Assembly (NCBI GenBank): GCA_902526965.1
Contig: CABZMT010000001.1
Location: 62,001-126,000 of the forward strand
Direction: 5' to 3'
Length of the DNA: 64,000 nt
DNA from: an uncultured Alphaproteobacteria bacterium
GTDB lineage: Bacteria > Pseudomonadota > Alphaproteobacteria > HIMB59
How positions within the stretch are numbered: position 1 is the first letter of the stretch; every line of letters begins with the position of its first letter. Shown here piece by piece: positions 14,552 through 17,523 of this stretch. Under the pieces are notes generated by a model. It saw nothing but the letters and a program-made list of their open reading frames with translations, was not told the origin of the DNA and searched no databases. The translations under genes and the position numbers were made by a program.

Positions 14552-16042
14552 ATGAACCTCTTTAGATTCCCAGAAAGTATACCCACTATTTTTTACAGCA
14601 TCATTTGGGTATGCTTGTTAGCAACAATTAGTTTAGGCACACCTTACTATTTTACTGATGATTTAAATTTATTAATTTCGTTAAAAAATAATAATTTAGT
14701 TTCAAATTTTTTAGATTTTATAAATCCGCATTTAATATTATTAAATATTGCTATCATGGTATCTAATGTATTTGCCATAGATAATTACATTTTATTAAGA
14801 CTCCTAAATTTTATTTACTTGGGATTAATAATTTTATTCACCTATAAAATTATTAAATTAAAATTTTATGACCTTCATTATTTAATGCCACTTACTGCAG
14901 TATTATTTAGTGGCACAATTTTGATTTCAATAACAACCATTAATGGCTCTCTTCTTTCTGGATTAATTACTTTATTAATAATTTATTATTTAATAAGAAT
15001 TTTTGATGAAGAAAAGATTTTAAATGTACTTTTTTTTATTTTTTTTAGTTTAATTGCATTAATTTTAAATAATTTCTTTTTTATTATTTTAATCTCATTT
15101 TTAACTATATTAAAATTATTTAATTTAAAGTTAGAAAAGAAAAAACGATTGAGCTTAATTTCTTATCTTTGCTCAATATATATAATAGCTTTAATATTTT
15201 TAATTATTCAGGGTATTGATGAAACAGATAACCTTTCTCCCATAAACTATGATTCATCTATTTTGATGCAAAGAATCATAGAGAGTATTATTTTTTTACT
15301 TCCTTTAATAAGTCTGTTGATTATCGCTATATTTTATAATGTTTTCAAAAGAGTTAATTGGAACAAGGATTTAATAACATTTTTTTCATTAATAATTATT
15401 TCTTGGTTTTTATTTATTTTCTCAAATAAATTAAACTTATCAATATTGGTGTTTATGTTACCAATAATGTCCATTTACATTTTTAGAACATTAGAATTTG
15501 TAGATTTAAAATGGTCAAAAATTTTTTTAATTAGTCTTATTTTCATACCAGCTATCATTATTTATTTTGATACATCTCTTTATCAAAATATGTCAGACAT
15601 ACCCCATATTAATTACCTCTTCTATAGTTCGATAATTTTAGCCTCATTAATTAATCCTATTTTTTCATCGCAGAAAAAATCTATAACTGCCGTATATAAA
15701 ACTATCTCATTTTCCCTAATTTTAAGTTTATTTTTTTCACTGATATTTTTTTATTCTCAATATATGTCAAAAACATTAAGTTTTGTCATACCTGATACTT
15801 TAGTTAATGAGCTTAATTGTGATATACAAAAAACTGAATTTATATTAGAAAAGGATCATCCATTGGATTTAGTGTTATTTTTTAGTGATAAAATCGATCC
15901 AGATTATTTTTCTGATTGTCAAATAGCACTAACATTTAGCTCGATCGATAACACACCAATAGACGATAGGGAGGCTGTAAATAAAACTATATTAGATTTG
16001 ACATCAAAATCTTATATTAATCTTAATTTTAAAAAATTATGA
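14552..16042 (+). CDS. Polytopic membrane protein, possibly GT-C-type transferase
   Basis: 496 residues dominated by about 11-13 hydrophobic helices, with a polar periplasmic-looking C-terminal part after about residue 400. Between the first two helices is PYYFTDDLNLL; paired acidic residues there recall the first loop of GT-C glycosyltransferases such as ArnT/PMT. That resemblance is an inference from topology, not a family match. The gene is very AT-rich, below its neighbours. Its TGA overlaps the ATG of the PAP2 gene (ATGA), so the two are translationally coupled and probably act together on a lipid or lipid-linked glycan. Confidence 0.6.
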   Translation: MNLFRFPESIPTIFYSIIWVCLLATISLGTPYYFTDDLNLLISLKNNNLVSNFLDFINPHLILLNIAIMVSNVFAIDNYILLRLLNFIYLGLIILFTYKIIKLKFYDLHYLMPLTAVLFSGTILISITTINGSLLSGLITLLIIYYLIRIFDEEKILNVLFFIFFSLIALILNNFFFIILISFLTILKLFNLKLEKKKRLSLISYLCSIYIIALIFLIIQGIDETDNLSPINYDSSILMQRIIESIIFLLPLISLLIIAIFYNVFKRVNWNKDLITFFSLIIISWFLFIFSNKLNLSILVFMLPIMSIYIFRTLEFVDLKWSKIFLISLIFIPAIIIYFDTSLYQNMSDIPHINYLFYSSIILASLINPIFSSQKKSITAVYKTISFSLILSLFFSLIFFYSQYMSKTLSFVIPDTLVNELNCDIQKTEFILEKDHPLDLVLFFSDKIDPDYFSDCQIALTFSSIDNTPIDDREAVNKTILDLTSKSYINLNFKKL

Positions 16043-17481
16043 CGTTTTTAAATCAATTAAATGCTAAAGAAAAAAAAGTAAGTATTTATTTATTAATTGG
16101 TGCTCTTTTTTTCTTATTATTCGATTACTCTATAGCTTCATTCTTTCATAGCTTAAACTATCAAACTAAGTCACTTTTCGGAGCTCTTACTCATTTTGGA
16201 GACTCTTTATATTTTTTCGTACCTACTATTTTAACATGGGCACTAGTTAAAGTAATTAAAAGTAAAAATCACATCCTTAATACTATAAGTGAGATTAGTT
16301 TATTTATTTTTTTTAATATTTTATTAAGTGGAATAGTCACACAAATATTAAAACACATAATTGGGAGACCTAGACCAGTTTTGTTTAATGGTTTTGATCA
16401 AAAATCTCTAAGTATTATAAGCTTTGACTCGAAGTGGCATTCATTCCCATCTGGTCATACGGCAACTATCTTTGCATTTATCTTTTGTATGGTACTCTTG
16501 TTTCCTAAAATTAAAAACATTCTGATAACAGTAGCTATTATAATTGCTTCAACTAGAGTTATAGTCGGCGCTCATTTTATAAGTGATATTTTTGGAGGGG
16601 CATTAGTTGCATACCTGTCCTCAATACTTATCTCAAAAAATTTAGCTAGCAAAAAAATATTGTTTACTATAGGAGATGAAAAACTTATTCCTAATTCAAA
16701 TGTAAACATAATTTCAAGTTATATTGCCAAAGTTTATAAAAATATTTTCTCTCTTTATTTGAATTTTAATTTTTACTTTAAAACCCTCACAATAACTCTA
16801 TTGCTTTCTATTGTGTTCTTCTTATTTCCTTCCTTGGACATTACGGTTAGTGGTTTATTCTTCGGACAGGATGGTAAATTTATCGCCACTGAGTCAGATT
16901 GGTTTATTTTCTTTATTCGCAAAATGTTGCTCCCACTTTTGGCATTACTAGTTTTCTTTGTTCCTATAGCTGCAGTTATAAAACAAATTTATTTTAAAGA
17001 AAAAATTTTAAATATTCCTGTAAGGGAATGGGCTTACTTATTTTCTTGTCTTATTGTTGGAACGGGTATTGTTGTTAATTCTATTTTTAAAAATCTATGG
17101 GGGCGAGCACGACCGAATGATACAATCCAGTTTGGTGGTCAAGAGCCCTTTACTATACCATGGCTAAATGTTGATTATTGTAGCACTAATTGTAGTTTTG
17201 TTTCAGGAGACGTATCTTTCTTCACGCTATCATTGGCTTTATTAATTATTTTTAATAAGACCTCATGGAATTCTTTTGCTTATGCCTTTATTCTTTTAAT
17301 TTCATTATTAAGAATTATGGAGGGAGATCATTTTTTGAGCGATACTGTTATGAGTTTCATTATTACATACGTAATTATCATAGGTTTAAAAGACATTTTT
17401 AAAAATTTTCCAGAGGATTTGAATTTAAATCAATTAAAAAAATTTACTTGGCGGTCCCGCAAGGATTCGAACCCTGACTAA
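16039..17481 (+). CDS. Tandem PAP2 (lipid phosphatase) membrane protein
   Basis: 480 residues with two PAP2 domains in one chain. The first (about 20-205) has a full active site: KX6RP in LKHIIGRPRP, PSGH in SFPSGHTA, and RX5HX3D in TRVIVGAHFISD. The second (about 245-460) has KX6RP in FKNLWGRARP and RX5HX3D in LRIMEGDHFLSD, but SGD in SFVSGDVS where the acid/base histidine is expected. The second half may therefore be altered or inactive. Likely substrates are lipid phosphates such as lipid A or undecaprenyl pyrophosphate. The last 11 codons run antisense into tRNA-Arg. Confidence 0.88.
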   Translation: MTFLNQLNAKEKKVSIYLLIGALFFLLFDYSIASFFHSLNYQTKSLFGALTHFGDSLYFFVPTILTWALVKVIKSKNHILNTISEISLFIFFNILLSGIVTQILKHIIGRPRPVLFNGFDQKSLSIISFDSKWHSFPSGHTATIFAFIFCMVLLFPKIKNILITVAIIIASTRVIVGAHFISDIFGGALVAYLSSILISKNLASKKILFTIGDEKLIPNSNVNIISSYIAKVYKNIFSLYLNFNFYFKTLTITLLLSIVFFLFPSLDITVSGLFFGQDGKFIATESDWFIFFIRKMLLPLLALLVFFVPIAAVIKQIYFKEKILNIPVREWAYLFSCLIVGTGIVVNSIFKNLWGRARPNDTIQFGGQEPFTIPWLNVDYCSTNCSFVSGDVSFFTLSLALLIIFNKTSWNSFAYAFILLISLLRIMEGDHFLSDTVMSFIITYVIIIGLKDIFKNFPEDLNLNQLKKFTWRSRKDSNPD

Positions 17482-17523
17482 ATGATCCGAAGTCATTTGT
17501 GCTATCCGTTACACTACGGAACC
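17449..17523 (-). tRNA. tRNA-Arg (anticodon UCG)
   Basis: The minus strand folds as a full cloverleaf: acceptor GGTTCCG/CGGGACC (one G-T pair), a D arm, anticodon stem AATGA/TCATT with loop CTTCGGA, and T arm CAGGG-TTCGAAT-CCTTG. Discriminator G and an encoded CCA follow. Anticodon TCG reads CGA. The PAP2 coding frame overlaps its 3' 33 bases on the opposite strand. Confidence 0.95.

Follow-up and report, generated by a model that had tools for sequence, protein, structure and literature searches.

Two overlapping genes of an uncultured marine alphaproteobacterium are described here, the second of which joins two lipid phosphatase domains in one polypeptide, while the first encodes a membrane protein of the glycosyltransferase-C (GT-C) type without the catalytic loops of its relatives. 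They lie in a stretch of 64,000 nucleotides, hereafter the window (contig CABZMT010000001.1, positions 62,001 to 126,000 of the forward strand, assembly GCA_902526965.1), which is part of a draft genome of 1.09 Mb and 79% completeness (G000), and are referred to as open reading frames ORF1 and ORF2. In the interpretation which we favour with modest confidence, ORF2 would be a double phosphatase of lipid A with an LpxE-like and an LpxF-like half, and ORF1 the remnant of a sugar transferase, retained as a non-transferring partner. The enzyme classes are known and the arrangement is new, a natural fusion of LpxE-like and LpxF-like domains that is conserved order-wide, together with a conserved loop-less GT-C protein.

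The lineage of the window is the marine order HIMB59. PMC10734472 divides the order into the families HIMB59 and GCA-002718135, describes genomic islands linked to phosphate supply, and presents a marine clade of cosmopolitan distribution that is adapted to water poor in phosphate. The comparison set consisted of 60 related genomes, G000 included, which fall into two groups, f1 (37 genomes) and f2 (23 genomes), probably matching the two published families.

A fused phosphatase gene conserved across the order

ORF1 and ORF2 are encoded on the same strand with an overlap of 4 bp. An earlier reading of the sequence alone had described them as coupled membrane genes, the second fusing two PAP2 domains, and the family searches confirmed this description. 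ORF2 matched PF01569 twice (E 1.2e-40 for the whole protein, 7.5e-27 and 1.1e-18 for the separate domains), and as both halves exceed the cut-off of the model the protein belongs to the PAP2/lipid phosphate phosphatase superfamily. In G000, 79% complete, PAP2 domains were found only in ORF2. The superfamily motifs K-X6-R-P, PSGH and (S)R-X5-H-X3-D are recognisable in both halves, as KHIIGRPRP, PSGH and RVIVGAHFISD in the first and as KNLWGRARP, VSGD and RIMEGDHFLSD in the second, where the His of motif 2 is replaced by Asp. The sequence-only reading had reported these motifs correctly, including the SGD of the second domain.

A relative of the fused protein is present in 53 of the 60 genomes (33/37 of f1 and 20/23 of f2). 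One open frame spans both halves in 52 of these 53, the gene of G025 being truncated at a contig end, and the number of PAP2 matches per genome is exactly two in 51, three in G015 and one in G025. No match to the fused protein was found in the remaining 7/60 genomes, all of them drafts with a completeness of 65 to 92%. On this distribution an assembly error or a chance fusion was rejected, a concern for which a comparison with relatives had been proposed.

The Asp of the second domain had been regarded as an anomaly, a view which the family alignments overturned. No catalytic column of either half varies among the aligned proteins (identical in 14/14 and in 37/37), and the same is true of the SGD and of the two cysteines Cys381 and Cys385. 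Moreover, PMC6581854 reports an active LpxE of Aquifex with Asp at the position of the PSGH His, and the same replacement is visible in the alignment of ORF2 with the solved structure of that enzyme (6ebu). Given this invariance and the presence of Asp in an active enzyme, SGD is no anomaly in this family, and its interpretation as an inactive site was rejected. Separately, the C-type half of some fusions found elsewhere, in which the domain order is reversed, has SGH in place of SGD or SGE (L208, 4122-5606; L209, 4768-6165; L211, 3993-5471), so that motif 2 of the LpxF-like domain is variable across the wider group.

Identity of the two halves

A tree of 50 PAP2 domains split the N side from the C side with a support of 100/100 and placed an annotated Rhizobium LpxE on the N side; on this basis, an origin of the two halves by tandem duplication of a single domain within the gene was rejected. 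The N half shares 34% identity with this Rhizobium protein, whose lpxE name is an annotation, at an E of 2.8e-25, against 0.02 for the C half. The best match of the N half among the sequences of the Protein Data Bank (PDB) was again an LpxE (6ebu, 2.8e-7). The AlphaFold model of ORF2 reached a predicted local distance difference test (pLDDT) score of 83.4, and its structure matches over the N half were headed by YodM (5jki, Z 17.5), followed by LpxE (6ebu, Z 15.8, 156 residues aligned); the match list is filled by the N half and is uninformative on the C half. For the latter, the best family was NF045633 (LpxF), at 2.7e-29. By sequence, the N half groups with LpxE, the lipid A 1-phosphatase, and the C half is LpxF-like, that is, similar to a 4'-phosphatase.

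LpxE of Aquifex aeolicus (6ebu) is among the closest known counterparts: it shares the PAP2 fold and the motifs K-X6-R-P and R-X5-H-X3-D, and its motif-2 Asp resembles that of the C half (PMC6581854). It differs in being a single domain, and in being closest to the N half, which has an ordinary PSGH.

ORF1 belongs to the GT-C proteins

ORF1 alone gave no match up to E 1 in Pfam or NCBIfam and none among PDB sequences, and it remains below the model cut-off of PF13231 (PMT_2). Its relatives occur in 34 of the 60 genomes, all in f1 (34/37, against 0/23 of f2), and adjoin the fused gene directly in 32 of these 34; in the other two, G008 and G025, the contig ends there. The affiliation of the protein was provided by intact homologues in three f1 genomes (G013, G015 and G023; loci L102-L104), which share 26-28% identity with it over the alignment and 30-31% over the matched part. 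They keep the motifs D-R-D-E, K-K-P-P, H-G-G and T-K-L-P-H-Y-x-L-P, and the homologue of G013 (L102:6156-7718) matches PF13231 at 3.9e-9 with 37.4 bits, above the cut-off of 26.1. Furthermore, an outgroup member (L219) matches the solved ArnT at 8.1e-11.

The AlphaFold model of ORF1 pointed in the same direction, its top structure being ArnT (5f15/5ezm), with a Foldseek value of 2.5e-4 for 5f15 and, by VIA, a Z of 20.9 over 381 residues with a root-mean-square deviation of 5.5. The titles of the first 40 VIA rows all referred to GT-C enzymes, to complexes of oligosaccharyltransferase or of the translocon, or to glycosylphosphatidylinositol (GPI) transamidase. As judged from homology and from the predicted fold, ORF1 is a GT-C protein. 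The sequence-only reading had seen a resemblance in topology, which is extended by both lines of evidence, and the structure prediction which it had suggested as a check did return the GT-C fold.

Compared with ArnT of Cupriavidus metallidurans (5ezm/5f15), the model of ORF1 has the same GT-C fold, while the protein lacks both the K-P and the His loop, and the two are about 9% identical when aligned by structure. Chains U of GPI transamidase are among the structure matches of the model. PIG-U, which we take to be a GT-C-fold subunit of that complex without a transferase role, may offer a precedent for a GT-C fold retained as a non-catalytic partner, with the difference that it is eukaryotic and part of another complex.

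Loss of the catalytic loops in ORF1

The catalytic positions were compared in 38 sequences of the window type, 37 full-length and one partial (L112), with ArnT numbering taken from PMC7801869 and from the alignment with the solved ArnT. Both the K-P loop and the periplasmic His loop are deleted in 38/38, under four alignment methods. In keeping with this, no KP dipeptide occurs within residues 30-90 in any of the 38 sequences, and no KLP anywhere. The Asp55 column holds Glu in 22 sequences, Asp in 10 (the window included), Ser in 3, Gly in 2 and Gln in 1. In the intact relatives (3/3) and the outgroup members (7/7), the two Asp positions of D-R-D and the Lys of K-P are retained, and the loop His is retained in 3/3 and 6/7, respectively. 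The combination of catalytic Asp and K-P Lys which characterises ArnT/RgtF-type transferases is absent from ORF1. In ArnT, Lys85 of the K-P loop meets the donor phosphate.

With the K-P and His loops deleted, a variable residue at Asp55 and a disrupted K-L-P motif, ORF1 most likely no longer transfers sugar. The sequence-only reading had envisaged a lipid-linked glycan or lipid A modification unit; a lipid A unit is likely, and a working transferase as its component is not supported, given the missing loops.

An improbable alternative is that ORF1 is still a glycosyltransferase whose active site has been rebuilt around a new donor or acceptor, by means of the conserved D37. This residue, which follows the Asp55 column, is Asp in 38/38 window-type sequences, with the same result under three other alignments, so that residual catalysis would be conceivable. 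PMC7801869 describes the DD/DE position as critical for catalysis in GT-C enzymes, some of which have a DD motif in the same loop. The retained GT-C fold, the purifying selection on the gene, the invariance of D37 together with 91 other residues in 24 window-type rows, and the K-L of K-L-P, possibly kept in most sequences, also speak for it. Against it stand the deletion of both loops throughout the window-type sequences, with neither K-P in residues 30-90 nor K-L-P, and the failure to find PMT_2, RgtE-like glycosyltransferase family 2 (GT2) and LAB_N donor genes in these genomes.

Selection on ORF1

The 37 full-length window-type copies are open frames of 492-496 amino acids (aa), with identities down to 40%. 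In simple pairwise Nei-Gojobori estimates from 32 sequences, in which the pairs are not independent and the printed bins cover 471 of 496 pairs, the median ratio of non-synonymous to synonymous substitution rates (dN/dS) over three bins of control dS was 0.18, 0.21 and 0.25 for ORF1. The corresponding values were 0.09, 0.06 and 0.09 for ORF2, for which only 8 of 37 pairs were usable in the third bin, and 0.05, 0.03 and 0.04 for a neighbouring aminotransferase used as control. A fourth bin, consisting of one pair, gave 0.23 for ORF1, 0.13 for ORF2 and 0.04 for the aminotransferase. ORF1 evolves fast yet under purifying selection, its dN/dS of about 0.2 indicating constraint; the 92 invariant positions of the 24 window-type rows have D37 among them.

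These data bear on a further explanation, according to which ORF1 is a decaying gene briefly retained after the loss of its pathway. Although its dN/dS is the highest of the three genes compared, and its amino acids have drifted under AT pressure, a ratio near 0.2 instead of 1 and the persistence of full-length open copies at such low identities make decay highly improbable.

Table 1. Features of the ORF1-ORF2 locus, in window coordinates
Feature	Position	Strand	Description
ORF1	14552..16042	+	496 aa; GT-C-fold membrane protein by prediction, degenerate RgtF/ArnT-type (PMT_2) homologue, proposed pseudo-glycosyltransferase
D36-D37 codons	14657..14662	+	aligned to ArnT Asp55-Glu56
Site of missing K-P-P stretch	14723..14728	+	N58/P59; 12 residues of intact relatives absent, gap in 38/38
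ORF2	16039..17481	+	480 aa; fused double PAP2 lipid phosphatase (predicted)
N-terminal PAP2 domain	16303..16635	+	residues 89-199, LpxE-like; K105-P113, PSGH 137-140, R173-D183
C-terminal PAP2 domain	16792..17376	+	residues 252-446, LpxF-like; K351-P359, SGD 389-391, R425-D435, invariant Cys381/Cys385
SGD replacing SGH	17203..17211	+	residues 389-391; invariant among aligned family members
tRNA-Arg (tcg)	17449..17523	-	3' end overlaps last 33 bases of ORF2 (10 codons + stop), opposite strand

Proposed function and points against it

In the proposed mechanism, ORF2 would act as a bifunctional inner-membrane lipid phosphatase at the periplasmic face, its LpxE-like N half and LpxF-like C half freeing lipid A of the 1- and 4'-phosphates. 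A complete catalytic set would be present in each half, namely a Lys/Arg pocket and a His nucleophile with its Asp partner, the C half using the Asp of motif 2. ORF1 would derive from an RgtF/ArnT-type GT-C transferase which formerly added a sugar at the dephosphorylated 1-position, and may persist to support the phosphatase structurally or to present its substrate. An ancestral lipid A kit which removed a phosphate and added a sugar would have been reduced to a double phosphatase and a pseudo-glycosyltransferase, and the expected product would be a lipid A from which the phosphates are gone and in which no sugars take their place. A stronger version, which we regard as doubtful, makes ORF1 an obligate non-catalytic subunit holding lipid A across both sites, with a lipid A free of phosphate and sugar as part of the phosphorus-sparing envelope of an oligotroph.

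Several observations weigh against the favoured interpretation. Catalysis, the lipid A substrate, the assignment of each half to a phosphate, the contact between ORF1 and ORF2 and the final product are all inferred. No LpxE model reached its own cut-off in the model searches, and ORF2 obtained 102.6 of the 400 bits required by the curated cut-off of NF045633, for which reason the C half is named only LpxF-like; a separate C-type gene (L219) also stayed under this cut-off with 147.2 bits, and three plasmid-borne C-type proteins tried as an LpxF reference (L238-L240) scored 60.5 to 77.7. The model of ORF1 is of middling confidence (pLDDT 75.7, with the five models ranging from 54.9 to 75.7 and the first 30 residues poor), and the 27 alignment rows behind it include the three intact relatives. 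Apart from the constancy of D37, two of the motif losses are sensitive to the choice of alignment. The lysine of K-L-P is lost in 38/38 in one alignment, while K-L is kept in the window in another, and a pattern count found K in 26 of the 37 window-type sequences which could be placed, most of them losing only Pro. Likewise, the motif-3 Asp is replaced by a gap or by other residues, with an Asp nearby in 7/38. All motif losses of ORF1 fall in one clade and may represent a single event. LpxK, which installs the 4'-phosphate of lipid A, supports the proposal by its presence in 48/60 genomes, but was not found in the incomplete genome G000 itself.

Phosphatidylglycerophosphate (PGP) is a serious rival substrate. 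In this rather unlikely alternative, the fused protein acts mainly on PGP, and perhaps on undecaprenyl diphosphate (C55-PP), the N half supplying the HIMB59 family with its PGP phosphatase, and lipid A being a side substrate at most. PgpA occurs in 0/37 f1 genomes, one of them a single contig with a completeness of 99%, vs 21/23 f2 genomes, a pattern which also counts against the lipid A interpretation. Moreover, the structure matching the N half best, YodM, is a PGP phosphatase, and LpxE of Aquifex likewise has PGP phosphatase activity according to PMC6581854. However, among the f2 genomes PgpA is present in 21/23 and the fusion in 20/23, and therefore the fusion did not arise as a replacement of PgpA. 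A small HAD-family protein, recognised by weak matches in 26/37 f1 and 0/23 f2 genomes, could have taken over from PgpA, the reciprocal pattern suggesting a possible swap of PGP phosphatases between f1 and f2. Lipid A accounts better than PGP for the linkage to GT-C genes and for an LpxF-like half, and one enzyme could have both roles. As regards C55-PP, BacA is present in 49/60 genomes, G000 included, and this function is therefore otherwise covered; a role of ORF2 as the sole or essential C55-PP phosphatase was weakened accordingly.

The sugar arm in related genomes

The genes expected for a sugar-adding arm are unevenly distributed. PMT_2 proteins were found in 3/37 f1 genomes, the three with intact homologues, and in 22/23 of f2. 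LAB_N was found in the same 3/37 and in 11/23 of f2, and RgtE-like GT2 matches above 140 bits occurred in exactly these 14 LAB_N genomes, all other listed matches being below 66 bits. The GT2 gene neighbours LAB_N in 5/6 loci examined, as in Azospirillum lipoferum. Many f1 genomes are incomplete, which bears on these absences; PMT_2, LAB_N and GT2 were also not found in G029, an f1 genome of one contig and 99% completeness.

A second PMT_2 gene, of family F2, stands beside the fused gene in 37/37 f2 loci (with a short frame in L168, and three cut by contig ends) and in 3/3 intact f1 loci, against 0/40 window-type loci, some of which are short. About half of the f2 genomes have the F2 gene without a LAB_N or GT2 match, a further point against the proposed kit; the two need not co-occur, and another donor source or incompleteness may be involved. 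In 33 of the 37 f2 loci (L157-L193), the PMT_2 gene which lies downstream of the fused PAP2 gene is itself followed by a DUF3108 gene, and one is also present in L094 (4163-4837).

The kit in other Alphaproteobacteria

A search across the class revealed matches to some part of the fused protein in 166/385 genomes. Among the matches listed, 20 regions were picked by eye, and the fusions found in them are examples, not a census. Both halves share one frame in at least 11 regions, eight with the C-type domain first (L204-L211, of which L206 and L207 come from one family) and three with the N-type domain first (L212-L214, from one genus). The two domain orders imply at least two origins of the fusion. 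A GT-C-type gene lies near 10 of the 11 fusions, in L206 and L207 by weak matches and in L205, L208 and L211 on the opposite strand or at some distance; L210 is close to the start of its contig. In L219 and L220 the components are separate genes on one strand, in the order GT-C (F3), PAP2-N, GT-C (F2) and PAP2-C, and an F3 relative in Azospirillum lipoferum adjoins GT2 and LAB_N genes.

This arrangement recalls the rhizobial systems. As described in PMC7663294 and PMC7795004, lpxE and rgtF act at the 1-position and lpxF and rgtD at the 4'-position, each pair swapping a phosphate for galacturonic acid, with rgtE making the donor. If F3 belongs to the N half and F2 to the C half, the two pairs would correspond to RgtF/LpxE and RgtD/LpxF, respectively. 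The likeness consists of a 1-type and a 4'-type PAP2 protein with ArnT-like GT-C partners. In contrast to these systems, the two phosphatases are here joined in a single protein, the search for a second PMT_2 gene next to it found none, and the RgtF-like gene is without its catalytic loops. No description of natural LpxE-LpxF fusions or of HIMB59 lipid A was found among the open-licence literature matches listed.

Base composition and flanking tRNA

The two genes had also been described as lower in guanine-cytosine (GC) content than their neighbours, which holds for ORF1 (22.2%, the lowest among 52 window ORFs of at least 150 aa) and not for ORF2 (29.4%, rank 12/52, z -0.9), which is unremarkable. 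The low GC of ORF1 sits in codon positions 1 and 2, the residues F/I/L/M/N/K/Y making up 63% of the protein, and its GC at the third codon position is near normal (z -1.1), which leaves a recent horizontal acquisition as the cause unsupported. Such an acquisition is further countered by a similar neighbourhood in most f1 loci examined, with the exception of L106, which differs upstream of the pair, and by a fusion common to f1 and f2. Of the earlier suggestion that the unit may be acquired or fast-evolving, the second part stands for ORF1, given its dN/dS.

The last 10 codons and the stop of ORF2 are the complement of the 3' end of tRNA-Arg(tcg). In nine relatives (among loci L114-L156), about 0.9 kb separates the gene from the tRNA, and the ORF2 tail resembles a decayed tRNA end. 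These tails have 12-16 mismatches in 33 positions, against a shuffled mean of about 19, with 0-6 of 300 shuffles as low, and the register is the same in 5/9 relatives; they are likely the scar of a tRNA-targeted insertion. The genes around this tRNA differ among relatives, forming a small variable site (L105, 4170-6120; L106, 5340-6122; L107, 9955-11025; L120, 7470-8348). By eye, its contents include an epimerase-like pair and a protein of 292 aa that has D-x-D-x-D stretches and begins in a signal-like manner; Pfam matches to DUF553 and TatD below the threshold were also recorded.

Conclusions

If the favoured interpretation holds, ORF2 would represent a complete phosphate-removal device in one polypeptide, with its domains in either order among Alphaproteobacteria, and the occurrence of both orders would be a sign that the halves act together. 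ORF1 would exemplify a bacterial pseudo-enzyme of the GT-C type that has been conserved. Finally, a lipid A free of both phosphate and sugar would be predicted in a clade which PMC10734472 presents as cosmopolitan in the sea and adapted to phosphate-poor water.

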